DNA of 64,000 nucleotides from an uncultured Desulfovibrio sp. Its GTDB lineage: Bacteria; Desulfobacterota; Desulfovibrionia; Desulfovibrionales; Desulfovibrionaceae. A program made the position numbers and the translations under genes. Location: NCBI GenBank assembly GCA_913060505.1, contig CAJXRQ010000005.1, positions 1-64,000 on the forward strand, written 5' to 3'. Under the pieces are notes generated by a model. The model made no database searches. It worked only from the letters and a program-made list of their open reading frames with translations, and was not told the DNA's origin. This document shows positions 42,532-61,286 of this stretch, piece by piece. Every line of letters starts with the position of its first letter. Position 1 is the first letter of the stretch.

Positions 42532-42548
42532 GAAGTCACTCTGACCCA
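42532..42548 (+). promoter_or_regulatory. Distal activator site of adh-hdr-flx (UAS2)
   Basis: GAAGTCACTCTGACCCA is centred 31 bp upstream of UAS1. It matches the site at 60019-60035, read in the direction of mop transcription, at 13 of 17 positions. Confidence 0.6.
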
Positions 42549-42562
42549 CACGCTGTAGCAGA

Positions 42563-42579
42563 TGTATCATTTCGACACA
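42563..42579 (+). promoter_or_regulatory. Proximal activator site of adh-hdr-flx (UAS1)
   Basis: TGTATCATTTCGACACA is an imperfect palindrome centred 165 bp upstream of the -24 GG. It matches the site at 59988-60004, read in the direction of mop transcription, at 15 of 17 positions. Confidence 0.75.
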
Positions 42580-42733
42580 TCGCTAAAAATCGTCACAATA
42601 TCGTAGCGTTAATTTCACTGAACTTCCCGGCTCCGCTCTCTCTGCCTCGTCATGATGGGTCATTTTGTCCCTGTGGCGACCGCCTCCTCCTCGCGCGGAC
42701 CTCCAACTAGCCGAAAAAGAAAGACAACTCATC

Positions 42734-42750
42734 TTGGCTCGCTCTTTGCT
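42734..42750 (+). promoter_or_regulatory. Sigma-54 promoter of adh-hdr-flx
   Basis: TTGGCTCGCTCTTTGCT has the GG and GC doublets at the correct distance and matches most of the sigma-54 consensus. Transcription would start about 60 bp before the adh start codon. Confidence 0.88.
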
Positions 42751-42821
42751 CTTAAGGGGCACCTGGCTGGTATCCATACGGTATACCCGTTGTGTTTAAC
42801 CTCTTTTCAGGAGAAAGTATC

Positions 42822-44003
42822 ATGGCTGTCCAAGAACAAGTTTACGGATTCTTTATTCCCCGCACGACCCTCATCGGCATCGGAGCATCCAAAGAAATCC
42901 CCACAAAAATCCGCGCTCTCGGCGGGGAAAAACCTCTTGTTGTCACTGACCAGGGCATTGTGAAAACCGGTATTCTGAAACAGATCACGGACCTGCTTGA
43001 CGATGCCAAGATGAAATACGAAGTCTACGACAAAACCATCCCGAACCCCACCGACAAGAACGTCCACGACGGCGTTGCCGTATACAAGAAAGCAAAGTGT
43101 GACAGCCTCATCACGCTGGGCGGCGGTTCCTCCCATGACTGCGGCAAGGGTATCGGCCTTGTTATTTCCAACGGCGGCAAGATTCATGACTACGAAGGCG
43201 TGGACAAATCCACCAAGCCCATGCCGCCATACGTGGCAGTAAACACCACGGCAGGAACCGCTTCTGAAATGACCCGTTTCTGCATCATCACCGACCTTTC
43301 CCGCAAAGTGAAAATGGCTATCGTGGACTGGCGCGTAACACCCAACATCGCGCTCGACGATCCCATGCTCATGGTGGGCATGCCCCCGGCGCTGACAGCG
43401 GCCACGGGCATGGACGCCCTGACCCATGCCGTGGAAGCCTACGTTTCCACCATCGCCACGCCCATGACCGACGCATGCGCGGAAAAAGCCATTGAACTGG
43501 TCTTTACCTACCTGCGCCCGGCAGTGGCAAACGGACAGGATCTCCAAGCCCGTGAAGCAATGTGCTTTGCCCAGTATCTCGCCGGTATGGCCTTCAACAA
43601 CGCCTCCCTCGGCCACGTGCACGCCATGGCACACCAGTTGGGAGGCTTCTATGACCTGCCCCACGGCGAGTGCAACGCCATCCTGCTGCCGCATGTCGAA
43701 CAGTTCAACCTGATCGCCAAGGTCGACAGATTTGCCAAGATGGCCCAGATCATGGGTGAAAATATTGATGGTCTCTCTCCGATCGAAGCAGCTGAGAAAA
43801 GCCTTAAAGCCATCAAGCGTCTCTCCTCTGACGTAGGCATCCCCTCCGGGCTTGTCGAACTCGGCAAACGCTATGGAAAGGACGTCAAGGTCAAGGACAT
43901 CAAGGAAATGACCACAAACGCCCAGAAGGACGCCTGCGGCCTGACCAACCCAAGATGCCCGACCGACGCGGACGTGGCAGCCATTTACAAGGCCGCCATG
44001 TAA
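42822..44003 (+). CDS. adh: Iron-containing alcohol dehydrogenase of the hdr-flx operon
   Basis: The 393-residue group III alcohol dehydrogenase carries GGGSSHDCGKGIG (NAD-binding, near 98-110) and metal ligands in TGMDALTHAVEAYV, LGHVHAMAHQLGG and DLPHGECNAILLP. It closely resembles the abundant ethanol dehydrogenases of Desulfovibrio, which produce acetaldehyde and NADH. AGGAG precedes the ATG at 42822. It opens the adh-hdrCBA-flxDCBA operon; a stable hairpin after the gene may raise its expression relative to the downstream genes. Confidence 0.95.
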   Translation: MAVQEQVYGFFIPRTTLIGIGASKEIPTKIRALGGEKPLVVTDQGIVKTGILKQITDLLDDAKMKYEVYDKTIPNPTDKNVHDGVAVYKKAKCDSLITLGGGSSHDCGKGIGLVISNGGKIHDYEGVDKSTKPMPPYVAVNTTAGTASEMTRFCIITDLSRKVKMAIVDWRVTPNIALDDPMLMVGMPPALTAATGMDALTHAVEAYVSTIATPMTDACAEKAIELVFTYLRPAVANGQDLQAREAMCFAQYLAGMAFNNASLGHVHAMAHQLGGFYDLPHGECNAILLPHVEQFNLIAKVDRFAKMAQIMGENIDGLSPIEAAEKSLKAIKRLSSDVGIPSGLVELGKRYGKDVKVKDIKEMTTNAQKDACGLTNPRCPTDADVAAIYKAAM

Positions 44004-44018
44004 ACGAGGCCAACATTA

Positions 44019-44043
44019 CCGGGAGGGGCATTGCCCCTCCCGG
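44019..44043 (+). other. Strong hairpin between adh and hdrC
   Basis: A perfect 11-bp GC-rich stem (44019-44029 with 44033-44043) has a 3-nt loop and no T run. It is more likely an mRNA-processing or stability element, or a weak attenuator, than a terminator. Confidence 0.6.
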
Positions 44044-44153
44044 GCATTCTGTGCCCCACTCGCCAAACAGCATCGCAACGGGACTCCCCAAAGGCCTGGC
44101 CGACATGGCCGGCACTGTCGATGCAAACCGGCAAAGCCAAACGGATCAAGGCT

Positions 44154-44714
44154 ATGGAAACAATACATGTAAACAGTTCCTGCGATGAGGCGTTCATCCA
44201 CGCGGTTGAAAACGAAAGTGGAGAGAACGTCAGCCTTTGCTATCAATGCGGTAACTGTACGGCAGGGTGTCCGTATACGGACTTCTACGACATTCCGGTG
44301 AGCCAGATCATGCGCCTTGTCCAGATGGGACAACGCGAGACAGTGCTTTCATGCCGGTCCATATGGCTCTGTGCCACCTGCGAATCCTGCACCACCCGCT
44401 GCCCCAACAACATCGACGTGGCCACCGTCATGGATGTGTTGCGTCATATGGCGCGCAGGGCGGGCAAGAATCCGGAACCGCAGGTCAAAACTTTTTGCGA
44501 TTCCTTTCTCGCTTCCGTCAAACGCCACGGCAGGGTGTTCGAGGCGGGATTGATGGCCAGTTACATGACCAAAACCGGACGAATTCTCACCGACGCCGAT
44601 CTTGCGCCCAAAGTTCTTCCCAAAGGGAAATTGGGATTCACACCGCACAATATCGTGGGCAAAAAGGAGATCACCGAAATCTTTCAACGATACAACGCGG
44701 AGAAAAACTCGTGA
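44154..44714 (+). CDS. hdrC: Heterodisulfide reductase subunit HdrC
   Basis: The 186-residue protein has two [4Fe-4S] motifs (CYQCGNCTAGCPY near 23-35 and CATCESCTTRCPN near 64-76), followed by a helical domain, as in HdrC. It passes electrons between HdrA and the catalytic HdrB. The start is placed at the ATG at 44154; an earlier in-frame ATG at 44121 is possible. It belongs to the Flx-Hdr complex, which links NADH oxidation to ferredoxin and a thiol/disulfide partner (proposed DsrC) by electron bifurcation. Confidence 0.92.
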   Translation: METIHVNSSCDEAFIHAVENESGENVSLCYQCGNCTAGCPYTDFYDIPVSQIMRLVQMGQRETVLSCRSIWLCATCESCTTRCPNNIDVATVMDVLRHMARRAGKNPEPQVKTFCDSFLASVKRHGRVFEAGLMASYMTKTGRILTDADLAPKVLPKGKLGFTPHNIVGKKEITEIFQRYNAEKNS

Positions 44715-45610
44715 GCTCATCGTTAACATTTGCATATTATCCCGGCTGCTCCGGGCAGGGGACCTCCATCGAATACGACAAATCGACCCGCGCCGTGTGC
44801 AAGGCCCTGGGCATAGAACTGGTGGACATCCCGGACTGGAGCTGTTGTGGCTCAAGTCCGGCGCACACAGTGGACCACATTCTTTCAGCGGCGCTTTCGG
44901 CCCGCAACATCCTGCAGGCGGAAGATATGGACGTACAGGGCATCATCACCCCCTGTCCCAGCTGCCTGACCAACCTCAAGGTGGCCAGCCACCGCATGCG
45001 CGACGAACAGTTCAAGGAAAAGGTGGATGACCTTCTGAACGAACCTTGCCGCAACGATCTGCCCATCATGTCCGTGCTGCAAGTCATCTATGAGAAACTC
45101 GGCCCCAAGGCGCTCGCCGCCAAGGTCACTAATCCGCTCAAGGGACTGAAGCTGGCACCCTATTACGGTTGCATCATGAACCGTCCGCCGGAAGTCATGG
45201 ATTTTGACGACTGTGAAAACCCCGTGGCCATGGACCATCTCATGGAAGCGGTCGGGGCAGAGGTCATGCCCTTTCCGCTCAAGGTGGAGTGCTGCGGGGC
45301 GTCCTTCGGCGTGGCCAGAAACGACGTGGTCACCAAGTTGTCCGGCAAACTCCTTGACGTGGCCGCGGACTGCGGCGCGGCCGCCATGGTCACGGCCTGT
45401 CCGCTCTGCCAGATGAACCTGGACATGCGCCAGGATCAGATCAACAGGGCCAACAAGAGCAGCCACAAAATGGCGGTATTCTATTATACGCAGCTCATCG
45501 GAAAGGCTCTCGGCCTCAGCGACGCCAGCCTCATGCTGGACAAGCTGTGCGTGGACCCCGGGCATCTGTTCCGGGAAATAGAAACAGCCCGAACAGCGGA
45601 CGCCGTATAG
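44711..45610 (+). CDS. hdrB: Heterodisulfide reductase subunit HdrB
   Basis: The 299-residue protein has two CCG domains (PDWSCCGSSPAHTVDH near 40-55 and VECCGASFGVARND near 193-206, each with further Cys residues upstream), which in HdrB hold the noncubane [4Fe-4S] clusters of disulfide reduction. Translation starts with GTG at 44711, overlapping the hdrC stop by 4 bp. In sulfate reducers the substrate is thought to be the DsrC trisulfide or disulfide and not CoM-S-S-CoB. Confidence 0.93.
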   Translation: MSSSLTFAYYPGCSGQGTSIEYDKSTRAVCKALGIELVDIPDWSCCGSSPAHTVDHILSAALSARNILQAEDMDVQGIITPCPSCLTNLKVASHRMRDEQFKEKVDDLLNEPCRNDLPIMSVLQVIYEKLGPKALAAKVTNPLKGLKLAPYYGCIMNRPPEVMDFDDCENPVAMDHLMEAVGAEVMPFPLKVECCGASFGVARNDVVTKLSGKLLDVAADCGAAAMVTACPLCQMNLDMRQDQINRANKSSHKMAVFYYTQLIGKALGLSDASLMLDKLCVDPGHLFREIETARTADAV

Positions 45611-45640
45611 CCGGGCACGTTCTGAGGAGGCTCATTCCCC

Positions 45641-47620
45641 ATGAAAATAGGAGTTTTCGTCTGCCATTGCGGCAGCAATATAGCCGGAACCGTAAATGTA
45701 GGCAGCGTGGCTGAAGAGGCGCTCAAACTTCCGAGCGTGGCCTTTGCCAGTGACACCATGTACGCCTGTTCCGAACCGGGGCAGGACGCCATCATCGAGG
45801 CAATCAAGGAACACAGGCTCGATGGCGTGGTGGTCGCATCCTGCTCGCCGCGCATGCACGAACCCACATTCCGCAAAACCGTGGAACGCGCCGGGCTGAA
45901 CAGGTACATGTTCGAAATGGCCAATATCCGCGAACATGTGTCGTGGATCGGCAAGGACAAGGACGCCAACACCCGCAAGGCCGTCGACCTTGTTGCCATG
46001 GCCGTGGCCAAGCTCACGCAGGACCGGGAGCTGACCCCCAAGACATTCGACATCAACAAGCGTGTACTGGTCATCGGCGGCGGCGTCGCCGGGATTCAGG
46101 CCGCGCTGGACTGTGCGGACGGTGGGCTGGAAGTGGTGCTGGTGGAAAAGACATCCTCCATCGGCGGCAAGATGTCCAAACTGGACAAGACCTTCCCCAC
46201 GGTGGACTGCTCTAGCTGCATTCTGGGTCCGAAGATGGTGGACGTGGCCCAACACCCGAACATCACGCTCTATGCCAGTTCGGAAGTTGCTGACGTGAAG
46301 GGCTATGTGGGCAATTTCAACGTTTCCATCAACAGGAAGGCCACGTATGTTGATTGGGCGGCATGCACGGGCTGTGGCCTGTGCATGGAAAAATGCCCCA
46401 GCAAAAAATCGCGGGACGTTTTTAACGAAGAAATCGGTACCACAACAGCCATCAACATCCCCTTCCCGCAAGCAATTCCCAAAAAAGCATCCATCGATCC
46501 GGAATTCTGCCTGAAGCTGACCAAGGGCAAATGTGGCGTGTGCGAAAAGGTCTGCCCTACCAACGCAATCCGTTTCGAACAGAAACAGGAAACCGCGGAA
46601 GAGGCGGTCGGAGCCATCATCACCGCCACGGGATACGATCTTTTCGATTACACCCGCTACGAGGAATATGGCGGAGGACGCTACGCCGATGTGATCACTT
46701 CTCTGCAATATGAACGCCTGCTTTCGGCTTCCGGCCCCACCGGCGGACACATCAAACGGCCGTCGGACGGCAAGGAGCCAAAGGATGTTGTCTTCATCCA
46801 GTGTGTGGGTTCACGGGACAAGTCTGTCGACAGGCCGTATTGTTCCGGATTCTGCTGCATGTACACGGCCAAACAGGCCATTTTGACCAAGGACCATCTG
46901 CCCGAATCCCAATCCTATGTTTTCTACATGGACATCCGCGCTCCGGGGAAACTCTATGACGAATTCACCCGCCGGGCCATGGAAGAATACGGGACCAAGT
47001 ACATCAGGGGCCGTGTAGCCATGGTCTATCCCAAAGGCGATAAATACATTGTCCGCGGGGCAGACACCCTCATGGGTGCACAGGTCGAGGTCGAGGCCGA
47101 TCTCGTGGTACTTGCCGTGGGAGCCGAAGCCGCAAAAGGCGCACCCCAGCTGGCGGAAAAGTTGCGCATCTCTTACGATGCGTACGGATTCTACATGGAA
47201 AGCCACCCGAAACTGCGTCCTGTGGAAACGAATACCGCCGGAGTGTTCCTTGCCGGATCGTGCCAAGGCCCCAAGGACATTCCCACGTCCGTTGGACAAG
47301 GCAGTGCGGCCGCCGCAAAAGTGCTGGCCCTGTTCTCAAAGGACCAGCTCGAAAGCGATCCTCAGGTTTCCGTCGTGGACATCAAGCGGTGCGTCGGCTG
47401 CGGCAAATGCATCCAGACATGCCCGTTTGGAGCCATTGAGGAAATGGACTTCCGGGGAATGCCCAAGGCCAACGTCATCGAGACCATTTGCCAGGGCTGC
47501 GGCATCTGTACGTCCACTTGCCCGCAGGGAGCCATTCAACTGCAACACTTTACCGACAACCAGATCCTCGCGGAGGTCAATGCCATATGTCAGCAAACAC
47601 CGGCTCAGAACTTAAAATAG
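45641..47620 (+). CDS. hdrA: Heterodisulfide reductase subunit HdrA
   Basis: The 659-residue flavin subunit has an N-terminal CHCGSN segment, the FAD-binding VLVIGGGVAGIQAALDCADGG near 142 with Cys residues in TVDCSSCILGPK, and several ferredoxin motifs (CTGCGLCMEKCPS, CGVCEKVCPT, CVGCGKCIQTCPF, CQGCGICTSTCPQ). HdrA is the proposed bifurcating FAD protein. AGGAG precedes the ATG, and the end overlaps flxD by 34 bp. Confidence 0.95.
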   Translation: MKIGVFVCHCGSNIAGTVNVGSVAEEALKLPSVAFASDTMYACSEPGQDAIIEAIKEHRLDGVVVASCSPRMHEPTFRKTVERAGLNRYMFEMANIREHVSWIGKDKDANTRKAVDLVAMAVAKLTQDRELTPKTFDINKRVLVIGGGVAGIQAALDCADGGLEVVLVEKTSSIGGKMSKLDKTFPTVDCSSCILGPKMVDVAQHPNITLYASSEVADVKGYVGNFNVSINRKATYVDWAACTGCGLCMEKCPSKKSRDVFNEEIGTTTAINIPFPQAIPKKASIDPEFCLKLTKGKCGVCEKVCPTNAIRFEQKQETAEEAVGAIITATGYDLFDYTRYEEYGGGRYADVITSLQYERLLSASGPTGGHIKRPSDGKEPKDVVFIQCVGSRDKSVDRPYCSGFCCMYTAKQAILTKDHLPESQSYVFYMDIRAPGKLYDEFTRRAMEEYGTKYIRGRVAMVYPKGDKYIVRGADTLMGAQVEVEADLVVLAVGAEAAKGAPQLAEKLRISYDAYGFYMESHPKLRPVETNTAGVFLAGSCQGPKDIPTSVGQGSAAAAKVLALFSKDQLESDPQVSVVDIKRCVGCGKCIQTCPFGAIEEMDFRGMPKANVIETICQGCGICTSTCPQGAIQLQHFTDNQILAEVNAICQQTPAQNLK

Positions 47621-48048
47621 TTGGTTTTCTCTGCAACTGGTGCTCCTACGGCGGCGCAGACACTGCCGGTGTCGGGAGATTCCAGCAGCCCACGGACCTG
47701 CGCATCATCCGTGTTCCCTGCTCGGGCCGCATCGATCCCTTGTTCGTGCTCAAAAGCCTGTTCAACGGTGCGGACGGCGTTCTGGTTTCCGGTTGCCACC
47801 CGCGAGACTGCCATTACGCCGAAGGCAACTTTTATGCACGCAGAAGGCTGGAAGTGCTCAAGCGGTTCCTGCCGATTCTGGGCATTGACGAACGCCGTTT
47901 CGAATACACGTGGGTATCGGCTTCCGAGGGGCAAAAATGGAAGACCGTTGTCCAGACATTTACGGAACGCATCCACGAACTGGGGCCTGCCCCAAAGCTG
48001 GACCAATGCCTGATGGAAAGGGCCCAAGCCATGGCTATGGCCGTTTAA
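47587..48048 (+). CDS. flxD: FlxD, MvhD-like [2Fe-2S] protein
   Basis: The 153-residue protein has the MvhD/FlxD pattern: CNWCSYGGADTAG near 16-28, VPCSGRIDPLFVL near 43-55 and GCHPRDCHYAEGN near 69-81. It transfers electrons from the FlxABC module to HdrA. The ATG at 47587 lies within the end of hdrA, so translation is coupled. Confidence 0.92.
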   Translation: MSANTGSELKIVGFLCNWCSYGGADTAGVGRFQQPTDLRIIRVPCSGRIDPLFVLKSLFNGADGVLVSGCHPRDCHYAEGNFYARRRLEVLKRFLPILGIDERRFEYTWVSASEGQKWKTVVQTFTERIHELGPAPKLDQCLMERAQAMAMAV

Positions 48049-48073
48049 ACCGGTTATCTGAACGGAGACAACA

Positions 48074-49027
48074 ATGTCGAATCTGGACACATTGAAAGCG
48101 AAAATAAAAGAACGCCTTCCCGATCTGGACATGGTCGTTGGCTGGGAGCAGGGGTTCGACCCGCTGCGGGCTACTCCCCTGTTCATGCGTACCGAGGAAG
48201 ACGTGGACCGGCTGATCTGGAATCCGCTCTGTGTGCACAACCTCGCCACATACCTGCCCGGACTCAAGGGCAGGAAGGTCGGCGTGGTGGTCAAGGGTTG
48301 TGACAGCCGCTCCATCATCGAGTTGTTGCAGGAAAAGCTTATCAACCGCGATGACATCGTCGTTTTTTCCATGCCTTGCGAAGGTGTTGTTTCGGTACGA
48401 AAAATTCAAAACAGGATAGGCTCGCTGGACTATGTGGAATCCGTCGAAGCGGATACCGGCACAGTGAAGGTCACGGTGGACGGCTCTTCGCAAAGCTTCG
48501 GGTTCCCGGACGTAGCGGCATCAAAGTGTGGCCGCTGCCAATACCATACGGCATTGCTTTCGGACGAATTTGTCGGAGAGCCGAACAACGAAAAAGCCGA
48601 AGACGATTACTCGGACGTGACATCGTTCGAGGCCAGACCGCAAGAGGAACGTCTGGCTTTCTGGATGACGGAGATGCAACGCTGTATCCAATGCTATGCA
48701 TGCCGCAACGCCTGTCCTCTGTGCGTCTGCCGCGACCATTGCGTGGCCCAGAGCCGCGATCCGCACTGGATGACACAGGAAAATTCAACGCAAAACAAAT
48801 GGTTCTTCCAGGTGATCCACGCCATGCATCTGGCTGGCCGCTGCACCGAATGTGGAGAGTGTGAGCGCGCCTGCCCCGTGGGTATTCCGCTGTTGCTGCT
48901 CAAGCGCAAGTTGAACAAGGAAATTGAAGAACTGTTCGACTACAAGGCAGGAACGCTCATCGACTCGACACCGCCGTTGCAGGCATTCAAGGTGGAGGAA
49001 GACAATATCAACGAGAGGGGATGGTGA
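48074..49027 (+). CDS. flxC: FlxC, iron-sulfur subunit
   Basis: The 317-residue protein has an FrhB-like N-terminal part (VVVKGCDSRSIIELLQEK) and a C-terminal part with two [4Fe-4S] motifs (CIQCYACRNACPLCVCRDHC near 209-228 and CTECGECERACPVG near 261-274). It is an electron-transfer subunit of the Flx NADH dehydrogenase module. It ends in TGATG, overlapping flxB. Confidence 0.88.
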   Translation: MSNLDTLKAKIKERLPDLDMVVGWEQGFDPLRATPLFMRTEEDVDRLIWNPLCVHNLATYLPGLKGRKVGVVVKGCDSRSIIELLQEKLINRDDIVVFSMPCEGVVSVRKIQNRIGSLDYVESVEADTGTVKVTVDGSSQSFGFPDVAASKCGRCQYHTALLSDEFVGEPNNEKAEDDYSDVTSFEARPQEERLAFWMTEMQRCIQCYACRNACPLCVCRDHCVAQSRDPHWMTQENSTQNKWFFQVIHAMHLAGRCTECGECERACPVGIPLLLLKRKLNKEIEELFDYKAGTLIDSTPPLQAFKVEEDNINERGW

Positions 49028-50082
49028 TGGCTGTCAAATTCCTTGCAAAAGACAACCTTGTTCCCTGGCTTGCAGAGCTGGCTGAAACGCATCGGACAAT
49101 CGTGCCCAAACGCGAAGGAGAAGCGGTCGTATTCCGCCCCTTTGCCAAGGAGGAAGCCCCCGAACTTTCGGCCCGCCCCACGGAGTCGCCCAAGTCGGCT
49201 ATCTTTCCTCAATGCGACACCCTCATGTCCTTCCGGTACACCAAGGATGAGGAAGATCCCGGAAAGGTGTTGCTGGACTTGCGGGAAATGAAGGATGAAT
49301 CTCCTGCGGTCGTGGTTGGGTGCCGAAGTTGCGATGCCGCAGGTTTCAACACCTTTGACCGTGTATACATGACGGACAAAATCACGGACCAGAACTACCG
49401 TGCCCGGCGTGAAAACACGCTGTTCGTAACGATTATCTGCGAAAAGCCAGCCACTACCTGTTTCTGCAACTGGGTAGGAGGCAGCCCGACGGACACCAGC
49501 GGTGCGGACGTACGTATGACCCCGCTTGAAGATGGTTGGGTTCTTGAGTCCATTACGGAAAAAGGAGAACCGCTCCTTTCCAGCACACTGCTGAAAGACG
49601 GCGACGATCGGGCTGGCGATGCCGAAAAAATCAGGCAACAGGCCAAAGAACGGATGCCCGAAGCTCCCGACCTTTCCGAAGCGCCGGGCAAAGTGCTCGC
49701 CCTGTTCGAAAACAACGATTTCTGGGAAGCCGAATCCGCCAAATGTATCAGCTGCGGCGCATGCACATACCTATGCCCCACCTGCTACTGCTTCAACATC
49801 ACGGACGAAAGCTCCGGCATGGAAGGCGTACGGTTGCGGACATGGGACAACTGCATGTCCCACCAGTTCACCATGGAGGCCAGCGGACACAACCCCCGCC
49901 CCACCAAGGCGCACAGGCTCAAAAACCGTGTTGGGCATAAATTCAGCTACTATCCGAACATTCACGACGGCAACATATCCTGTGTCGGTTGCGGCCGCTG
50001 CATCAAGAGCTGTCCCGTTTCCGTGGACATCCGCAGCATCGTGTTGCACGCCATTGCCGCTCCGGCGGAAACGGAGAAATAA
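49027..50082 (+). CDS. flxB: FlxB, iron-sulfur subunit
   Basis: The 351-residue protein has C-terminal ferredoxin motifs (CISCGACTYLCPTCYC near 239-254 and CVGCGRCIKSCPV near 318-330) and an N-terminal region with further conserved Cys residues (VGCRSCDAAG), like anaerobic sulfite-reductase A-type subunits. GAGAGGGG is well spaced for the ATG at 49027, so I prefer it over the ATG at 49021. Confidence 0.88.
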   Translation: MAVKFLAKDNLVPWLAELAETHRTIVPKREGEAVVFRPFAKEEAPELSARPTESPKSAIFPQCDTLMSFRYTKDEEDPGKVLLDLREMKDESPAVVVGCRSCDAAGFNTFDRVYMTDKITDQNYRARRENTLFVTIICEKPATTCFCNWVGGSPTDTSGADVRMTPLEDGWVLESITEKGEPLLSSTLLKDGDDRAGDAEKIRQQAKERMPEAPDLSEAPGKVLALFENNDFWEAESAKCISCGACTYLCPTCYCFNITDESSGMEGVRLRTWDNCMSHQFTMEASGHNPRPTKAHRLKNRVGHKFSYYPNIHDGNISCVGCGRCIKSCPVSVDIRSIVLHAIAAPAETEK

Positions 50083-50085
50083 ACC

Positions 50086-50940
50086 ATGCTGCAGAACACG
50101 CAAACAGCGAAAGACGCCAACCCATATCTGCCGTCCATCGGCACCATTGTGGAGATCATCGAGGAAACCCCGAATATCAAGACGTTCCGTGTCGTACTCA
50201 ACAGCGAAGGCGACATGAAGAACTTCACCTTCCATCCCGGACAGGTAGGACAGCTCTCAGTGTTCGGCACTGGCGAATCAACCTTTGTCATCAATTCGCC
50301 GCCCACCCGTATGGACTACCTGCAATTCAGCGTCATGAAGGCTGGAGAGGTAACGGCCATGCTGCACACTCTTTCCGTGGGCGACCAGATCGGCGTGCGC
50401 GCTCCCCTGGGCAACTGGTTCCCATATGAAGAACTCAAGGGAAAGGATATCGTCTTTATCGGCGGGGGCATAGGCATGGCCCCGTTGCGGACGCTACTGC
50501 TCTACATGCTCGACAACCGGGCCGACTACGGCAAGATAACTCTGCTGTATGGAGCCAGATCTCCCGAAGACATGGCCTTCAAATACGAACTGCCCGACTG
50601 GCTGGAACGTGACGACATGGAAACCACGCTGACCATCGATGCCGAAGCTCCGGGTTGGGAACATTCCGTTGGCCTGATCCCCAACGTTCTTCAGGAGATG
50701 AATCCCTCCAGCGAGAATTGCATGGCCATAACGTGCGGGCCTCCCATAATGATCAAATTCACGCTACAGGCCCTTGCCAAGCTGGGTTTCAAGGACGACC
50801 AAATCTTGACCACGCTCGAAAAACGCATGAAATGCGGCGTCGGTATCTGCGGACGTTGCAACATAGGCACAAAATATGTTTGTGTAGATGGTCCTGTTTT
50901 CACTTATGCGCAGCTCAAGGAGTTGCCCAACGAATTGTAA
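50086..50940 (+). CDS. flxA: FlxA, FAD/NAD(P)-binding subunit
   Basis: The 284-residue ferredoxin-NADP reductase-type protein has an FAD domain (about 10-110), an NAD domain (GGGIGMAPLRTLLLYMLDNR near 126-145) and a C-terminal Cys cluster (MKCGVGICGRCNIGTKYVC near 246-264) for a [2Fe-2S] centre. It oxidises NADH, probably made by Adh, and passes electrons to FlxB and FlxC. Confidence 0.93.
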   Translation: MLQNTQTAKDANPYLPSIGTIVEIIEETPNIKTFRVVLNSEGDMKNFTFHPGQVGQLSVFGTGESTFVINSPPTRMDYLQFSVMKAGEVTAMLHTLSVGDQIGVRAPLGNWFPYEELKGKDIVFIGGGIGMAPLRTLLLYMLDNRADYGKITLLYGARSPEDMAFKYELPDWLERDDMETTLTIDAEAPGWEHSVGLIPNVLQEMNPSSENCMAITCGPPIMIKFTLQALAKLGFKDDQILTTLEKRMKCGVGICGRCNIGTKYVCVDGPVFTYAQLKELPNEL

Positions 50941-50950
50941 CCAGTCCCCT

Positions 50951-51512: not shown

Positions 51513-51687
51513 CGCTCCGGGAAAACAACCTGAAATGAATAGATTTTCGGCCCGGCTGAAGTGCGCTGTGACGGGGCGGCGTTCCACTGGCCCGGCCGGG
51601 AGAAATTGAACACGGACAGAGAACACCCGGCCCCGGGAGGAGAAGTCCATTTGCGGCTCCTCTCCCACAGCTCCGGAGGGATGTGCC

Positions 51688-52539: not shown

Positions 52540-52552
52540 GGGAGAAATCCTC

Positions 52553-54139
52553 ATGCCTTCCACCAGAATCAAAACGCAGGCGCTCGTCATCGGTTCCGGC
52601 ATTGCCGGGGCCAGTTGCGCGCTGACCATCGCGGCCAAGGGGCACAAGGTAGTTCTGATCAGCGCCGGTGCAACCCCGGGCGACGGCAACACGGCCTATG
52701 CACAGGGCGGCATCGTTGCAAGGGGCAAGGAAGATTCCCCGGCTCTGCTCTCAAAGGACATGCATACGGCAGGCTGGAGCTACAACCATACGGCAGCCGT
52801 TAAGCATCTCGCAGCCCATGGGCCGGAGATTGTGGAAGAACTGCTCATCCGCAAGCTGAACGTTCCTTTTGCCATAAAGGAAGATGGTTCGGAATATGAC
52901 ATGACCCGCGAGGGCGGGCACTCGGTCAACCGCGTACTTTATTGCGGCGATTACACGGGGCGGGCCATTACGGACGCCCTCAACATGGCCCTGGAAGAAG
53001 ACCCGAACATTCGCATAGAAACGGGCCGAACGGCTGTAGACCTGATAACAAGCCTCCACCATACCACCCGGCTGGCGTTCCGATACGGCCGCATCAACCA
53101 ATGCCTCGGGGCGTATGTATACAACAACGCCACCGGACATGTGGAAACGATGTTGGCGGACTATACGGTTCTGGCCACAGGCGGACTGGGCCGCATCTTC
53201 CTTCATTCCACCAACAGCGGATGTTGCGTGGGCGGTGCGCTGACCATGGCTCACCGCTGCGGCGCTCGCCTGATGAATGCCGAGTTCATGCAGTTTCACC
53301 CCACGACTCTGTATAGCCGCTCCAAGCGCCGCTTCCTCATTACGGAAGCCATGCGCGGGGAAGGCGCACACCTGACGGACGGCAAAGGGCGGCGATTTAT
53401 GGAGCAATACGATTCCCGCAAGGAGCTGGCTCCTCGTGACATCGTTTCCCGCGCCATCGTGGATACGCTGCAACGAAGCGGCGAGGAATGCGTTTTTCTG
53501 GACTGCCGCCCCGTCGAACACGACCTGCCCACACGTTTCCCCACGATATACAAGCACTGCCTCGCACTGGGCCTGGACATACGCAAAGACCCCATTCCGG
53601 TTGTTCCCGGTGCGCATTACCATTGTGGCGGGGTGTATTCGGACGTCAACGGAAGAACAAGCCTTGAGCGGCTCTTCGCCATCGGTGAATGCAGTTGTAC
53701 CGGTGTCCATGGTGCCAACAGGCTCGCCAGCACATCACTGCTGGAAGGCGTGTTGTGGGGGCACAACGCCGGGGAGTTCATCGGCAGGAGATTATCCCGG
53801 AAAACAGGCGCGAACAAACGGTTACTGGACTCCATACCGGATTGGAAACATCCGGGGCAGGTTCAGAACGAAGACCCGGCTCTCATCGCTCAGGACTGGA
53901 TGAACATCCGGTCCACCATGTGGAACTATGCAGGGATCAACCGCACCGAACAACGACTTGCCCGTGCCTGCGAGGATTTGCGAGTGCTCATCAAGGATCT
54001 GACCAATTTCTATAAAAGGACGCCCCTGTCAAAACCGCTCATTGATCTTTACCACGGCTGTTATGCAGCCTATATAGTAGCCATGTCCGCCCTGAACAAT
54101 AAACAGTCCATTGGCTGCCACGCATTGCAGGACGATTGA
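52553..54139 (+). CDS. nadB: L-aspartate oxidase
   Basis: The 528-residue flavoprotein belongs to the NadB/succinate dehydrogenase family: FAD motif ALVIGSGIAGASCALTIA near 8-25, MQFHPTTLY near 247-255, GAHYHCGGV near 360, and the NadB-type GECSCTGVHGANRLASTSLLEG near 382-403. It oxidises L-aspartate to iminoaspartate for NAD synthesis, using fumarate or O2. GAGGGAG precedes the ATG at 52553. nadA and nadC are not in the window, so a fumarate-linked side role is possible. Confidence 0.88.
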   Translation: MPSTRIKTQALVIGSGIAGASCALTIAAKGHKVVLISAGATPGDGNTAYAQGGIVARGKEDSPALLSKDMHTAGWSYNHTAAVKHLAAHGPEIVEELLIRKLNVPFAIKEDGSEYDMTREGGHSVNRVLYCGDYTGRAITDALNMALEEDPNIRIETGRTAVDLITSLHHTTRLAFRYGRINQCLGAYVYNNATGHVETMLADYTVLATGGLGRIFLHSTNSGCCVGGALTMAHRCGARLMNAEFMQFHPTTLYSRSKRRFLITEAMRGEGAHLTDGKGRRFMEQYDSRKELAPRDIVSRAIVDTLQRSGEECVFLDCRPVEHDLPTRFPTIYKHCLALGLDIRKDPIPVVPGAHYHCGGVYSDVNGRTSLERLFAIGECSCTGVHGANRLASTSLLEGVLWGHNAGEFIGRRLSRKTGANKRLLDSIPDWKHPGQVQNEDPALIAQDWMNIRSTMWNYAGINRTEQRLARACEDLRVLIKDLTNFYKRTPLSKPLIDLYHGCYAAYIVAMSALNNKQSIGCHALQDD

Positions 54140-54153
54140 CCGGGAGGAAAAAC

Positions 54154-54417
54154 ATGGCATCAACGATCAAACTGTATGCCCTGAGCACCTGCCCCCACTG
54201 CTCGCAGGCCGGGGAATTGCTGGAAGCTCTTGTCGGACCGGACGGTTTTGAACACATCTACGTGGACAGGCTCTTCGGTGACAAACGAAACGATACGATG
54301 CGGGAACTACGCACCATCAATCCGGAAATGTCCTTCCCCACATTAATCATCGATGGGGAAGTCATAACCGGCTTCAAGGAAAAGCGTATCCGGAAGTTGC
54401 TTAAGAAAACGGATTAA
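54154..54417 (+). CDS. Glutaredoxin-like protein
   Basis: The 87-residue protein has a thioredoxin fold with the active site STCPHCSQA near residues 10-18, a cis-Pro region (MSFPTLIIDG) and a GFKEKRIRKLL end. CPHC resembles glutaredoxin-like thiol reductases of anaerobes. GGGAGGA precedes the ATG at 54154, 14 bp after nadB. Its stop overlaps the stop of the convergent minus-strand gene by 4 bp. Confidence 0.85.
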   Translation: MASTIKLYALSTCPHCSQAGELLEALVGPDGFEHIYVDRLFGDKRNDTMRELRTINPEMSFPTLIIDGEVITGFKEKRIRKLLKKTD

Positions 54418-55565
54418 ACATGCTCCGCCACCGGACATCCGGAAAGAATCTCGCGAGTCAGGGCTTCGGGATCAATGCCCAATTCCCTTTCAAAACGGCG
54501 CAAAACCTGCTTGCCGCGTTTATGGCGCCCGGTAATGGCCCGGCGGGCATCCGGTATATGCCCGTAGCGAGCCATCTTGTCTCCGTATCGCTCGTCCAGT
54601 GAAACGGGCGTCACGCCATGAATCAATTTGTCTGCCAGAAAAACAATTTCCTTTTCCGTGATGGGGTCGCCGGGCAAAAGAACCAGATCCGAATGATGTC
54701 GTACGATGTCCGCAGCATCCTCAAATCCATGAATGGCAAGCCATTCCCCGCCAATGGCGTCATGACGTTTCAAGCCCTTGCCTACGTCGTGCGTCAGTGC
54801 GGCCCCTTCCACAAAACAACGATCCAGCCGATCCTGCCCGAAACGTTGGCCGTTCAACATGTCACAGAAACGAACGCTGACACGCGCCACGGCCCGGCAG
54901 TGTTCGCGAGTCTCGTGGGGAGTGGAATACATGTTCCAAAGCTGTTCACATTCATCAGGAAACGGATATTTCAGGCCAACATGTTGTCTGGCGACAGAAT
55001 AGTCTTCGGCGGTTTCCAAAGCGCGCAAAACCCCGCGGTCAACCACATCCATATCTGAGGCCTCGGAGTCAAAACGACTCAGCAAAGTGCAAAGCGTTTC
55101 CTCTTCCGTGTGCTCCAGCATGCGCGGCACAAGCTTGCTGTGCACCAACGGCGGGTATCCTCTTTTGCCCTGAAACCGTGGATACAGAATGGAAGCATCC
55201 TCTTTTTCAAATGCCTGAATCAGCCGGGTTACGGTCTTGGCGCGAACAAGAGGACGATTTACAGGCAAAATAAAGAATCCTGAAACATCCCGCTGAAATT
55301 CCCTGACACCCGTCATGAGAGAAAAAAGAACCCCCTGCCCTCCATCGCTTTCGTATACGACTTCGGCTCCGGAATTCTCTGCCGTTTCCTCCAACTTCCG
55401 ATTCGTTTTTTTCCCCACTACGACAATCTGCCGGACATCGTTGGCCCAGAACAAATCCACGCAACGGGACAGAACACTCTCCGCCCCAAAGGAAAATAAC
55501 GGATTGAAGCGGCACTTCCCGGAGCAAAATTCGTCCGCGAAAATAATGGCCGCCAGCTTCTTCAT
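54414..55565 (-). CDS. MobA-like nucleotidyltransferase fused to HD domain
   Basis: The 383-residue protein has an N-terminal MobA/MocA-like domain (1-195) and a C-terminal HD hydrolase domain (about 215-340, HETREHCRAVARVS, LTHDVGKGLKRHD, IVRHHSD). The usual LAAGxSxRMG nucleotide-binding loop is replaced by FADEFCSGKCRFN, although PVNRPLVRAKTV keeps the family's PxDxP region in altered form. It is encoded downstream of mop, so it may mature or sort the molybdenum cofactor (MocA-type) or regulate it. The exact reaction is unknown. Confidence 0.82.
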   Translation of the reverse strand: MKKLAAIIFADEFCSGKCRFNPLFSFGAESVLSRCVDLFWANDVRQIVVVGKKTNRKLEETAENSGAEVVYESDGGQGVLFSLMTGVREFQRDVSGFFILPVNRPLVRAKTVTRLIQAFEKEDASILYPRFQGKRGYPPLVHSKLVPRMLEHTEEETLCTLLSRFDSEASDMDVVDRGVLRALETAEDYSVARQHVGLKYPFPDECEQLWNMYSTPHETREHCRAVARVSVRFCDMLNGQRFGQDRLDRCFVEGAALTHDVGKGLKRHDAIGGEWLAIHGFEDAADIVRHHSDLVLLPGDPITEKEIVFLADKLIHGVTPVSLDERYGDKMARYGHIPDARRAITGRHKRGKQVLRRFERELGIDPEALTREILSGCPVAEHV

Positions 55566-55715
55566 AACCAGCCTCCTCGACGTTCAATCAGAACCGGATG
55601 GCACAGGAACGGTTTCCGATTCTAAAGAGCCCAGATGACAAGGTAGACGACAGAGCGAAGGGAAGCAAGCCCACATGTAAAAATGTTTATTACTTTATTG
55701 GAAAGTGATTGTCCG

Positions 55716-55753
55716 TTCAAAAAAGAAGCGGCCCGCGCAAAAGCACGGGCCGC
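55716..55753 (-). terminator. Terminator downstream of mop
   Basis: An 11-bp stem with one mismatch (55728-55738 with 55743-55753) has a 4-nt loop and TTCTTTTTT following on the minus strand. Confidence 0.85.
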
Positions 55754-55783
55754 CAACAGAGAGTGTCGGGAATGGCTTTTCAG

Positions 55784-58501
55784 CTAGCCTTTGAGGCCGG
55801 CCAGAATCTTTTCAGGCCGTGCGGGGAGTTCCTTGATGCGAACGCCGCAGGCGTTGTAGATGCCGTTGATGATGGCCGGGTGCGGACCGCAGAGCGGCAC
55901 TTCGCCGACGCCGGAGGCGCCGAACGGGCCATCGGCACGCGGGGTTTCCACGTAGATGATGTCCATCTTGTCCGGGATATCCTTGATGTACGGAAGACCG
56001 GCGCCCACCATGGTGGAGTGCTTTTTGATGTCTTCGTAATCTTCGGTCAGGGCCAGGCCGATACCCTGGGCCAGGCCGCCGTAGATCTGGCCGTCGACCA
56101 GCAGGAAGTTGTTGACCGTGCCGATGTCGGCAACCATGGTCATGCCTTCCACTGAGGTCTTGCCGGTAGCGAGTTCCACGGCAACTTCGGCCATGAACAC
56201 GCCGTACATGTAGCAGCAGAACGGGTTGCCCTGTCCGTTTTCGTCGCAGTCGTTGGCCGGGGCGGTGAACTTGCCGTAGTAGCGCAGTTCCTTCTTGTCG
56301 GCCACCATCTCTTCATAGGTGCGGAAGCCGCCTTCGGGCTTTTTCATGGCCGCAACGAGCTGGTCGCAGGCGTTCTTGGTGGCCTGTCCGACCATGACCT
56401 GCGAACGGGAACCGCCAGCCGGGCCGGCGTTGGGGGCCTTGCTGGTGTCGCCGATGACGATGTGGATCTGCTCGGGGCTCAGGCCCAGAGGACGCAGGGC
56501 TTCGTGGGCAGTACCCAGGGAACCCATGTCCGCGCCCTGACCGTGGTCACCCCAGCAGGTGTAGATGGTCACGGTGCCGTCTTCGTTCAGAGCGGCATCG
56601 GCTTCCGCGGTGTCCGGTCCGTCAAGGCCGGAGGCGTATACGGCCACGGCAACACCCACGCCGCGCTTGATGGCGTCCGTGGAGTCCTGCTCGGCCTTTT
56701 TCTTGGCTTCTTCATATTTGGGACGCAGCTTGTCGATCATCTCGGGCAGGCTGTAGACTTCGGGATCCTGGCCGGTTGGCGTGGTGGAACCTTCGCGGTA
56801 CACGTTCTTGTAACGCAGTTCCAGCGGGTCCATGCCCAGTTTTTCGGCCAGCTCGTCCATCAGCACTTCGGACGGGAACTCGGCTTCCGGTCCGCCGTAG
56901 CCGCGGAATGCTGCACCCCAGCAGTGGTTGGTGCACACGGTGCGGCCTTCACCACGGATGGACGGGATGTCGTAACCGGCACCGATGAACTGTGCGCCGC
57001 GCAGGGTCAGCAGGTCACCGAATTCCGAGTACGGGCCGTGGTCCACGGTCCAGTCGGTTTCCATGCCCAGCAGCTTGCCGTCATTGGTGGCGGCCATGCG
57101 CACGGAGGTGAACTGCGGCGAGCGCTTACCGGTGTAGGTCTGCTGCTGGTGCCAGTCATAGTTCAGGTAGCACAGGCGGCCGGTAGCCATGGAGGCCACG
57201 CCCACCAACGCTTCCATGGTCGGCGAGAACTTGTACCCGAAGGTGCCGCCCGTGGGGTTCTGGACCATGACGATATTTTCAGGCTCCACGCCGATGCCCG
57301 GAGCGATCATGTACAGGTGCAGGTGCAGGCCGATGGACTTGGAATGGATGACCAGCTTGCCCTCGTCGTTTTCGTAGGCGAATCCCACGTCCGGCTCGAT
57401 GGGCATGTGCGGCTGGCGCTGCGTGTAGTAGTCGCCTTCCACGACCACGTCGGCCTTGTCGAAGATCGGCTTGGTGTCGTCACCCTTGGCGACCTTCTGG
57501 ATGTAGTAAACGTTGGGTGTGCCCGGATGGATTTCGATGGCGTCGTCGGCCATGGCTTCCGGGGCGCTCATGTATTCGGGGAGCTGTTCCAGCTCGACCT
57601 TGACCTTCTTGGCCGCGGCACGGGCGTTTTCATCCGTGTCCGCGCACACGATGGCAATGGCGTCGCCGTACTGGAACACCTTTTCGTCGCAAAGGATCGG
57701 ACGATCCCAACCGTCACCCTTGTTGGTGGGGAAGGTGATCAGGCCCGTGATGCGGTTCTTGCCCTTGACGTCCTTGTGCGTCACCACCTTGAACACGCCG
57801 GGCATGGCCTCGGCTTCGCTGGTGTCGATGGACAAAATGTTTGCGTGGGAGACTTCCGCCTGAACCAGCGCGCAATGCAGGCTGCCCGGGGGCAGGTGCA
57901 GGCCCAGGTCGGCGCCGAAGTCCCAGGTGCCGGTAACCTTGGCCACGGCGTTCGGACGCGGGTACTTGGTACCCCAGATGCGGCCGTCTTCGGGAAGCTT
58001 GAAAATCAGGTCGTCCATGGTCTTTTCGCCACGCATGACTTCCGCGGCGGCCATGACAGCGTCCACCAGCGGCTTGTAGCCCGTGCAACGGCAGGCGTTG
58101 CGATGCTTCTGGAACCAGTCGCGAACTTCCTCACGAGTCGGGGACGGATTGGATTCCAGCAGCGCCACCGTGGATACGATGAAGCCCGGAGAACAGAAAC
58201 CGCACTGGGCTCCGCCGTAAGCAATCCAAGACATCTGAACCGGATGCAGACGATCCGGACTGCCAACACCCTCAAGCGTGCGGATCTGGGAGTATTCCTT
58301 GATCCGTTTCCATTTGCGAGTGCACGAACGGATCACTTTGCCGTCCATGATGATCGAACAGCTACCGCACTGGCCCGTGCCGCAACCGACCTTTACACTC
58401 GTCAGACCCAGGTTCTCGCGCAGGACCAGAGCCAGGGATTTGTCACCCTCGGCCACAACCATGCGTTCGACACCGTTGACCTTGATCGTTTTCTTGAGCA
58501 T
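55784..58501 (-). CDS. mop: Molybdenum aldehyde oxidoreductase
   Basis: The 905-residue enzyme is very similar in length (907) and motifs to Desulfovibrio gigas Mop. It has a plant-type [2Fe-2S] domain (VGCGTGQCGSCS near 38-49), a helical second [2Fe-2S] domain (GGAQCGFCSPG, RNACRCTGYKP), then molybdopterin domains (PTGGTFGYKFSPT, TNHCWGAAFRGYGG, DHGQGADMGSLGTAHEALRP, GASGVGEVPLCGPHPAIING with the active-site Glu). It oxidises aldehydes such as acetaldehyde to acids using the MCD cofactor, without flavin. It is the second gene after the moeA-like gene on the minus strand and likely shares its sigma-54 promoter. Confidence 0.97.
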   Translation of the reverse strand: MLKKTIKVNGVERMVVAEGDKSLALVLRENLGLTSVKVGCGTGQCGSCSIIMDGKVIRSCTRKWKRIKEYSQIRTLEGVGSPDRLHPVQMSWIAYGGAQCGFCSPGFIVSTVALLESNPSPTREEVRDWFQKHRNACRCTGYKPLVDAVMAAAEVMRGEKTMDDLIFKLPEDGRIWGTKYPRPNAVAKVTGTWDFGADLGLHLPPGSLHCALVQAEVSHANILSIDTSEAEAMPGVFKVVTHKDVKGKNRITGLITFPTNKGDGWDRPILCDEKVFQYGDAIAIVCADTDENARAAAKKVKVELEQLPEYMSAPEAMADDAIEIHPGTPNVYYIQKVAKGDDTKPIFDKADVVVEGDYYTQRQPHMPIEPDVGFAYENDEGKLVIHSKSIGLHLHLYMIAPGIGVEPENIVMVQNPTGGTFGYKFSPTMEALVGVASMATGRLCYLNYDWHQQQTYTGKRSPQFTSVRMAATNDGKLLGMETDWTVDHGPYSEFGDLLTLRGAQFIGAGYDIPSIRGEGRTVCTNHCWGAAFRGYGGPEAEFPSEVLMDELAEKLGMDPLELRYKNVYREGSTTPTGQDPEVYSLPEMIDKLRPKYEEAKKKAEQDSTDAIKRGVGVAVAVYASGLDGPDTAEADAALNEDGTVTIYTCWGDHGQGADMGSLGTAHEALRPLGLSPEQIHIVIGDTSKAPNAGPAGGSRSQVMVGQATKNACDQLVAAMKKPEGGFRTYEEMVADKKELRYYGKFTAPANDCDENGQGNPFCCYMYGVFMAEVAVELATGKTSVEGMTMVADIGTVNNFLLVDGQIYGGLAQGIGLALTEDYEDIKKHSTMVGAGLPYIKDIPDKMDIIYVETPRADGPFGASGVGEVPLCGPHPAIINGIYNACGVRIKELPARPEKILAGLKG

Positions 58502-58547
58502 CCGAAAGTCCTCCTTGTTCGGATTTGAGCTTTCAACCTATCATCAC

Positions 58548-58565
58548 CCCCTCCTGCAGGAGGGG
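58548..58565 (-). other. Perfect palindrome between the MoeA-like gene and mop
   Basis: CCCCTCCTGCAGGAGGGG is an 18-bp perfect palindrome in the 71-bp gap, forming a stable hairpin without a T run. It is probably an mRNA-processing or stability element that separates mop from the upstream gene. Confidence 0.55.
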
Positions 58566-58572
58566 TCTATCG

Positions 58573-59595
58573 CTATACCGCCTTGCCGAACGGGCAAATC
58601 GGGAACCGGCAGGTCTCGCAGCCAGCGCAAAAACCACCGTGACCAAGCGCCACGATGTCTTCACGGGTGACCTTCTCACCCACCAGTATGCGGGGAACTA
58701 TCAAATCGAAAATCGAAGCGCGGTAATACATCACGCAGCCGGGCAGGCCCACGATGGGCACGCCGTTCAGATACGCCAGCATGAACATCGCTCCCGGGAA
58801 CGTGGGAGAACCGTAGGTCACCACCTCCGCGCCCGTGGCACGGATGGCCGCTGGCGTCTGGTCGTCCGGGTCCACGGACATGCCGCCCGTCAGAACGACC
58901 ATGGTCGCGCCGTTGTCGATGAACTCCAGAACCGCGTCACGAGCCATTTCAAGCTTGTCGTCCACAAACACCTGACCAGCGATCTTCGAGCCCATGGACT
59001 CGAACTTGCGCCGCACCACCGGACCGAAACGGTCCCGGATGCGTCCGTGAAAGACTTCGCTCCCCGTCGTCACAACGCCAACGTTGTACTCAAGGAACGG
59101 CTTGACCCGAAGCACCGGGCCGGTCTCGCTACAGATCTCCTCCACCCGGCGGACACGCTCCTCGTCCACCACCAGAGGAACCACACGGGTTCCCGCTATG
59201 GCCCGCGGCTCCTTCACCAAAAGCCCGTCGTGCATCGTGGCCACAACGACCTCTTCCACCGAGTTCACCCGGTTCAAAGCCGCCACGTCCACACGCAAAA
59301 GGCCGGGAGATGCCGTCAGGTTCACCCGCCCCTCGCACACGCTGCTCAGGCTCAATCCCGGACCTGCCACCGCACTGGCGATCCGGCGTGCTGCCTCGTT
59401 TTCATGAATCTGACCCTCAGCCAGATCAAGCACGTAAATGTGCTCCTTGCCTATCTCCAGAAGCAGGGGAATGTCCTCCTCGCTGATGACATGCCCCTTC
59501 CGAAAGGCCGGCCCTTTGGACTCGCCGGGTACGATGCGCGTCATGTCATGACACAGCACCATGCCCACGGCCTCTTCTACAGGTACTGCCTGCAT
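58573..59595 (-). CDS. MoeA-like molybdopterin-binding protein
   Basis: The 340-residue protein has the MoCF-biosynthesis (MogA/MoeA-type) domain at about 170-320: VGVVTTGSEVFHGRI, VVLTGGMSVDPDDQT, GLPGCVMYY. The N-terminal part is not the usual MoeA domain set, and the C-terminus is a Cys-rich tail (FCAGCETCRFPICPFG). Such proteins occur near xanthine-oxidase-type enzymes and are thought to help insert molybdenum or mature the cofactor. GGAGG fixes the start at 59595. The next gene is mop, its likely client. Confidence 0.87.
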   Translation of the reverse strand: MQAVPVEEAVGMVLCHDMTRIVPGESKGPAFRKGHVISEEDIPLLLEIGKEHIYVLDLAEGQIHENEAARRIASAVAGPGLSLSSVCEGRVNLTASPGLLRVDVAALNRVNSVEEVVVATMHDGLLVKEPRAIAGTRVVPLVVDEERVRRVEEICSETGPVLRVKPFLEYNVGVVTTGSEVFHGRIRDRFGPVVRRKFESMGSKIAGQVFVDDKLEMARDAVLEFIDNGATMVVLTGGMSVDPDDQTPAAIRATGAEVVTYGSPTFPGAMFMLAYLNGVPIVGLPGCVMYYRASIFDLIVPRILVGEKVTREDIVALGHGGFCAGCETCRFPICPFGKAV

Positions 59596-59818
59596 TGTGG
59601 AAACAACCTCCATAATTCAATTTGGAACGACCCCATTCAAACGACCCGCCACCCGGCCAAGCCACCGCTCAAACAAGCCCCCGGAAAGATGGTAGAAAAA
59701 AATTTCGCCCGTCACGGAAAGCCTGTCCTTATCCACAGAAACAAAAAATGACCTGACGACCCTCACATGTACGCCAAGTCGGATTTCTGTGGCTCACTGT
59801 TTGGACGAGATTTCCAAA

Positions 59819-59835
59819 AGCAAATACCAGACCAA
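59819..59835 (-). promoter_or_regulatory. Sigma-54 promoter of the moeA-like/mop genes
   Basis: TTGGTCTGGTATTTGCT on the minus strand has GG and GC at exact sigma-54 spacing, though positions 5-7 deviate from the consensus. Transcription would start about 210 bp before the MoeA-like gene. Confidence 0.65.
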
Positions 59836-59922
59836 CAATTTAATCATTAATTTACAGTATGTTGCAAAATCAACACTTACATTTTCTTTGAAGACTGTAG
59901 CAAAATGACCCAAAAAAAAGGC

Positions 59923-59949
59923 TTATTCCTGCTATATAGATAGGAATAA
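59923..59949. repeat. Long inverted repeat in the mop promoter
   Basis: TTATTCCT and AGGAATAA flank CTATATAG, forming a nearly perfect 27-bp palindrome between the promoter and the activator sites. It may be a further operator. Confidence 0.45.
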
Positions 59950-59987
59950 TGCGGAAATACCTTTGCCCCCCAAGGCATTATGCCGGT

Positions 59988-60004
59988 TGTGTCATAATGA
60001 TACA
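59988..60004 (-). promoter_or_regulatory. Proximal activator site of mop (UAS1)
   Basis: TGTGTCATAATGATACA (plus strand) is a palindrome centred 164 bp upstream of the -24 GG. Read in the direction of mop transcription it matches the adh site 42563-42579 at 15 of 17 positions. Confidence 0.75.
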
Positions 60005-60018
60005 TTTTTTTTGGCATT

Positions 60019-60035
60019 TGGGTCAAAATGACCAC
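60019..60035 (-). promoter_or_regulatory. Distal activator site of mop (UAS2)
   Basis: TGGGTCAAAATGACCAC (plus strand), with a GGTCA/TGACC core, is centred 31 bp upstream of UAS1, the same spacing as at adh. It matches the adh site 42532-42548 at 13 of 17 positions in the same orientation. Confidence 0.6.
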
Positions 60036-61285: not shown

Positions 61286-61286
61286 A

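Follow-up and report, generated by a model that had tools for sequence, protein, structure and literature searches.

A sigma-54 site array shared by the adh–hdr–flx and moeA–mop promoters of an uncultured Desulfovibrio, and its likely regulator

The 64,000-nucleotide stretch analyzed here (the window; contig CAJXRQ010000005.1 of assembly GCA_913060505.1) lies within contig C5 of a 3.16-Mb assembly from an uncultured Desulfovibrio sp. (genome G000). It carries two operons on opposite strands, adh–hdr–flx and moeA–mop, each preceded by a −24/−12 element and an array of palindromic sites, together with a gene for a sigma-54-dependent response regulator. Comparison of these sequences across related genomes leads us to propose, with a probability of roughly 0.8, that the regulator binds the array at both promoters and switches the two operons on together through sigma-54. 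More targets may be missing because the assembly is 81% complete.

Site array and genes of the window

The sites, designated A, B and C, occupy nearly equal distances from the −24/−12 element at the two promoters, measured from the start of each site (Table 1). Re-reading the letters returned both −24/−12 elements where a first-pass annotation of this DNA had placed them, reproduced its count of 15 identical positions out of 17 between the adh and mop B sites, and located the A sites exactly 31 bp upstream of B at both promoters, with 13 of 17 positions identical. That annotation had described two shared sites per promoter; both are present, and the array actually comprises three, the additional site C being identical at 13 of 17 positions between adh and mop. 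With a matrix derived from other genomes, the five best sites of the window are five of the six array sites (mop B, adh B, mop C, adh C and mop A), adh A being the weakest of the six. One match to an integration host factor (IHF) site, with one mismatch, lies between sites and promoter, at mop.

Table 1. Coordinates of the two promoters, their sites and the genes discussed in the text
Feature	Position	Strand	Details
adh −24/−12 element, TTGGCTCGCTCTTTGCT	42734-42750	+	1 mismatch to TGGCACN5TTGCW
adh site A (weak)	42532-42548	+	score 7.9; 203 bp from −24/−12
adh site B	42563-42579	+	score 20.2; 172 bp from −24/−12
adh site C	42656-42672	+	score 16.6; 79 bp from −24/−12
mop −24/−12 element, TTGGTCTGGTATTTGCT	59819-59835	-	3 mismatches to TGGCACN5TTGCW
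mop site A	60019-60035	-	score 15.4; 201 bp from −24/−12
mop site B	59988-60004	-	score 23.1; 170 bp from −24/−12
mop site C	59896-59912	-	score 17.3; 78 bp from −24/−12
adh1–histidine kinase (HK)–response regulator (RR) gene run	38838-42521	+	
PAS-HisKA-HATPase histidine kinase, likely partner of the regulator	39911-41191	+	Pfam; adh1–HK–RR order kept in relatives
Sigma-54-dependent response regulator (receiver, AAA+, HTH_8), GAFTGA intact	41175-42521	+	Pfam
adh2, iron-containing alcohol dehydrogenase	42822-44003	+	Pfam
hdr–flx cluster, electron-bifurcation type (CCG, HdrA-like, Fer4, NAD-binding subunits)	44267-50940	+	Pfam, NCBIfam
mop, molybdopterin-dependent aldehyde oxidoreductase	55784-58501	-	NCBIfam NF045668
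moeA-like molybdopterin-binding protein, first gene after the mop promoter	58573-59595	-	PF00994

To set the array against chance, we scored it with a composite model (A–B pair, spacing and −24/−12 element) trained on the adh2 promoters of 12 other genomes, from which G000 and every mop promoter were excluded. The held-out scores in G000 are 32.5 at mop and 26.1 at adh, and the next best in the window is 1.3. Dinucleotide shuffles (3000 per region) peaked at 7.5 for mop and 4.7 for adh, none reaching 10, and 67 loci around distant regulator relatives (at most 43% identity; 2.06 million strand-bases) gave a maximum of 2.9; we therefore reject chance similarity of the two promoters. Within 4.59 million strand-bases of loci, many of them overlapping and with the adh and mop promoters included, no score above 14.1 falls anywhere but in front of adh2 or moeA or immediately after a regulator ortholog (L044, L046). 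How the 12 training promoters themselves score is no evidence, since their sites were chosen by similarity to a consensus.

Scans for the sites alone point the same way. A 17-mer pattern derived from both sites has two exact matches in the assembly, a result that is circular by itself, and 33 matches with up to three mismatches, versus 19 for the reversed control. A genome-wide scan for the pair at 31 bp, with up to three mismatches, matched only the adh and mop promoters in the G000 assembly. Across 14 genomes the 31-bp pair yielded six rows versus one for the reversed control: three are the two G000 promoters, two are adh promoters (G002, G013) and one is unexplained. The 32-bp pair yielded 27 rows versus none in 18 genomes (13 at adh, three at mop) and 23 versus six in 36 genus genomes (eight at adh, three at mop). 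When 19 loci fetched by these scans were scored, the layout exceeded 5 only at G045 adh, G049 adh and G049 mop.

The regulator combines a receiver with a phosphorylatable aspartate, an AAA+ domain with GAFTGA and a Fis-type helix-turn-helix (HTH), as in NtrC-type response regulators. Its reading frame ends 10 bp before adh site A and its GAFTGA loop is intact at residues 220–225, both as first described. It is encoded with the kinase and adh1 and is linked to adh2–hdr–flx. The hdr–flx subunits are assigned by Pfam and NCBIfam matches that fall short of the curated cut-offs for exact names, and the order of these genes is kept in relatives. The mop product scores 1692 bits against NF045668 (curated cut-off 1100) and aligns over its full length with the solved MOP aldehyde oxidoreductases 1dgj and 1sij of the PDB (E=0), which places it in the same family. 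The moeA-like gene, whose start was compared with those of relatives, has an alternative start at 59613.

Other candidate targets and neighboring features were also considered. The region upstream of a gene for a methyl-accepting chemotaxis protein (MCP) on contig C24 (locus L003) has a composite score of 12.95, one 31-bp pair included. We rejected this gene as a firm third target (L010 ~6589-8130, minus strand); its sites are weak, its −24/−12 element is poor, and it is at most a possible candidate. Among 40 other genomes the closest match to it, at E≤1e-90, reaches 49% identity, and this chemoreceptor gene (MCP-like, named by reading; L010 ~6589-8400) adjoins nif-like genes. Autoregulation of the adh1–HK–RR run was also rejected, as no −24/−12-like element (up to three mismatches) lies within 800 bp upstream of adh1. 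In G036, where a relative shares 51% identity with the regulator, a GTCA...TGAC-type pair, 32 bp apart, lies downstream of that relative and precedes a −24/−12-like element (L180 ~8248-8630; score 14.1); it is perhaps the target of a sister regulator. Elsewhere in G000, a second hdr–flx-like cluster (C13 ~18700-24900, L187), with subunits of 45-78% identity, has no layout scoring above 14.1; unlinked clusters similar to it occur in G009, G013, G014, G016, G020 and G023. Within the window, the neighboring stretches 60939-61778 and 61443-62284 are 78% identical, and the adjacent genes look like tandem duplicates.

The layout in related genomes

The A–B–promoter core is present at both adh and mop in four related species. 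Scoring covered 23 adh2 upstream rows (22 distinct, as Pseudodesulfovibrio sp. MC-09, locus L055, and G047 share letters), of which 19 (18 distinct) reach at least 23; 12 of the 22 distinct promoters belong to training genomes, G018 included. All seven held-out genus genomes in which the regulator immediately precedes adh2 (G000, G043, G044, G045, G046, G047 and G049) have adh scores of at least 23, and two more distant held-out adh2 loci pass as well (L043, 31.2; L049, 24.3). Site C is more variable: among the 18 adh promoters listed, it lies 78-80 bp from the promoter in eight (G000, G044, G018, G022, G045, G006, G023 and G020) a site lies at 95 instead in G002, G013, G046 and G049, and six have no site at either position.

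At mop, the layout is found in G000, G044, G002, G049 and G018, five of the 36 distinct moeA loci scored, the next best score being 9.1; in G029 the pair stands at a shorter distance, and the locus does not pass. Among the scanned genus genomes, the mop layout occurs in 5 of 15 with a regulator ortholog of at least 58% identity and in 0 of 16 without one (Fisher p=0.018), and within genomes the B-to-promoter distances at adh and mop go together (172/170, 174/172, 169/162, 162/161 and 162/160; r=0.91, n=5), both statistics being rough because the genomes share ancestry. In another five of the 15, moeA lies downstream of adh–hdr–flx on the same strand, with mop also there in four. Among the six mop promoters listed, site C is at 78 only in G000; G002 has a site at 94 and G049 one at 63, and in G029 a pair lies at 115 and 83. 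In G002 and G049 (L161, L298), ~560-660 bp separate the mop promoter from moeA, so that the leader is long.

These promoters also bear on the idea that adh is the sole real target, the mop layout being silent and left over from a promoter duplication or from chance. The adh and mop promoters of G002 align along their length, sites included, at 13 standard deviations above shuffles, like a duplicated promoter, and the mop −24/−12 element of G000 is poor. Chance similarity having been rejected by the held-out scores, we regard a silent mop layout as very unlikely.

The regulator and its signal

The proposed joint control by the adjacent response regulator draws on gene position as well as on the sites. 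Matches to the regulator at E≤1e-125 occur in 18 of the 36 genus genomes, and 15 of the 16 with an ortholog of at least 58% identity, all except G003, have it immediately before adh2. For the adh half, published data agree (papers are cited here for the passages that concern these genes): DNA-affinity-purification chip (DAP-chip) experiments assigned DVU2405-2397 (adh, hdr) to the regulator DVU2394 of D. vulgaris Hildenborough (Rajeev 2011, PMC3333781), and Kazakov 2015 lists DVU2394, with GSFTGA, and its target DVU2405-2399 (PMC4641369). The first-pass annotation knew of no earlier description of the shared site; this holds at most for the mop target and the shared geometry, which we did not find in the literature, the supplementary DAP-chip target tables lying outside that search.

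At either promoter, or at both, the sites could be read by a different activator. A search of G000 with the regulator gave 25 matches at E≤1e-60, hence many activators of the same fold; the RKTLYRK core of the HTH also occurs in relatives of 50-54% identity and so is no proof of specificity; TGT/ACA-type sites are used by many activators (PMC6615313); and the DAP-chip targets of another D. vulgaris regulator, PhoB (DVU1083), include an alcohol dehydrogenase (PMC3333781). Against this stand the restriction of the mop layout to genomes with a close ortholog, the position of the regulator upstream of adh2 in nearly all of them and the DVU2394 DAP-chip result, so we consider another activator unlikely.

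The likeness to the DVU2394 regulon is a two-component sigma-54 regulator assigned an adh and hdr–flx operon, with adh1–HK–RR encoded in Nitratidesulfovibrio relatives as in G000; the sequences compared were those of Nitratidesulfovibrio and Desulfovibrio sp. relatives of 54-57% identity. The differences are that the DVU2394 targets named in the cited passages include the stress genes DVU3298-3305 and no aldehyde oxidoreductase, whereas the proposed second target in G000 is moeA–mop, with the same A–B sites, spacing and promoter element as at adh, and that DVU2394 has a direct-repeat motif and GSFTGA rather than a palindromic array and GAFTGA. As to the motif, N. oxamicus and N. liaohensis carry at adh an A–B pair of similar kind, 32 bp apart, but with weak scores. 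The Clostridial AdhR and AorR are likewise sigma-54 activators with TGT...ACA sites upstream of alcohol dehydrogenase or aldehyde oxidoreductase genes (PMC6615313, PMC7017808). Clostridiales, however, have separate activators for adhA and, as predicted, aor–moaD (PMC6615313 predicts AdhR and AorR, and PMC7017808 shows AdhR), whereas one two-component regulator is proposed for both operons in G000. In S. fructosivorans, whose aor is a ferredoxin-type enzyme rather than Mop, a 2023 study suggests that adh and aor answer to different regulators and states that regulation of hnd, adh and aor "remains to be elucidated" (PMC10084766). DVU1559, the aldehyde oxidoreductase of D. vulgaris, has been grouped with DVU2405 as ethanol metabolism (PMC10920352) and appears in the passage cited from PMC11784015 solely for its lowered level in a mutant of an adhesin, and evolved syntrophic cultures acquired recurrent DVU2394 mutations, loss of function among them (PMC8319347).

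Several observations weigh against the proposed regulon. DVU2394 has the further targets DVU3298-3305, its direct-repeat motif was present in no more than a subset of its hits and found solely in the Hildenborough and Miyazaki strains of D. vulgaris (PMC3333781), and neither PMC3333781 nor PMC4641369 mentions DVU1559 in its main text. Besides the poor mop −24/−12 element of G000, the mop promoters of G044 and G018 lack site C, and in the last five of the 15 genomes with a close ortholog (G003, G020, G022, G023 and G045) mop lacks both the promoter layout and adjacency to adh. At adh, G018 scores 11.3 even as a training member; G032, G036 and G040, held out as well and having regulators of ~50% identity and a divergent adh2, fail at this promoter, as do the held-out loci L053 and L050, the latter with the regulator directly upstream and no −24/−12-like element; and the Syntrophobacteraceae adh2 locus L312 is without any element. 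Near the DAP-chip lineage, N. oxamicus, N. liaohensis and Desulfovibrio sp. Rs511 have adh promoters that fit weakly (13.1, 15.7 and 16.8), with a 32-bp pair before a good −24/−12 element.

Sigma-54 activators bind upstream sites as dimers; once phosphorylated, they form oligomers that remodel the closed complex through DNA looping. By this scheme, the neighboring kinase would phosphorylate the regulator on a redox or alcohol/aldehyde signal, and regulator dimers would sit at A and B, 31-32 bp or about three turns apart, on one face of the DNA, and perhaps at C. Looping of the DNA would then bring the GAFTGA loops of the AAA+ oligomer into contact with the sigma-54 holoenzyme. Adh would convert ethanol to acetaldehyde, with Hdr–Flx taking the electrons of NADH, and the MoeA-like protein and Mop would convert acetaldehyde to acetate, so that ethanol and acetaldehyde oxidation would rise together with less acetaldehyde build-up.

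The sensed signal need not be ethanol, because the S. fructosivorans adh is not induced by ethanol in the passage cited (PMC10084766). Joint control might thus be real and yet serve redox balance or aldehyde detoxification, including ethanol formed and re-used from pyruvate, rather than growth on ethanol. The absence of ethanol induction favors this, as do the high expression of D. vulgaris adh on lactate, pyruvate, formate or H2 (PMC3333781) and the PAS domain of the kinase, which has no identified ligand; that D. vulgaris needs adh to grow on ethanol (PMC3333781) speaks against it. We rate this alternative as a real contender at somewhat less than even odds; it concerns the signal and not the wiring, and can be compatible with control of both operons by the adjacent regulator.

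A second moeA–mop copy and the evolution of the layout

The first-pass annotation placed acetaldehyde oxidation under the regulator. Sequence comparison supports this well for the moeA–mop operon of the window, which has the layout; acetaldehyde oxidation is probably not wholly under the regulator because a second moeA–mop copy lacks the promoter. The 3799 bp at 55784-59582 recur, with one mismatch, 27 kb away on the same contig (C5:82726-86524; L154/L155), where no sigma-54 layout is found (score below zero). The second copy is part of a longer cluster that runs collinear with the G018 mop cluster and whose other genes were named molybdenum-related by reading. The 1.7 kb upstream of it is 79% identical to its counterpart in G016, and the region upstream of the window copy has no match to G016. 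At one end the identical tract reaches the stop codon of mop, and at the other it breaks off a few codons inside moeA. The likely explanation is gene conversion that affected the coding part and left the promoter in place; an assembly error in the draft genome may instead be the source of the second copy.

More broadly, and tentatively, at odds just under even, the ethanol regulator may have captured aldehyde oxidation repeatedly, by three routes. The adh enhancer and promoter would have been copied onto moeA–mop in the line of G002 and G049; sites with matched spacing would have been fixed at a mop cluster beside adh in G000, G018 and G044; and moeA–mop would have come to lie downstream of adh–hdr–flx in G006, G013, G043, G046 and probably G021. 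An aldehyde dehydrogenase downstream of hdr–flox in D. gigas offers a precedent for such adjacency (PMC4287179). In G000, the coding sequence of the window moeA–mop would later have been overwritten by gene conversion from the second cluster, the promoter being kept.

If joint control by the response regulator holds, the alternating solutions, an own promoter or adjacency, would form a natural series for the evolution of enhancer–promoter geometry, and the named sites, spacing and regulator would make the question of regulation directly testable. Ethanol oxidation yields toxic acetaldehyde. Placing the enzymes that make and remove it on one two-component switch would explain how the pathway is balanced in these sulfate reducers.

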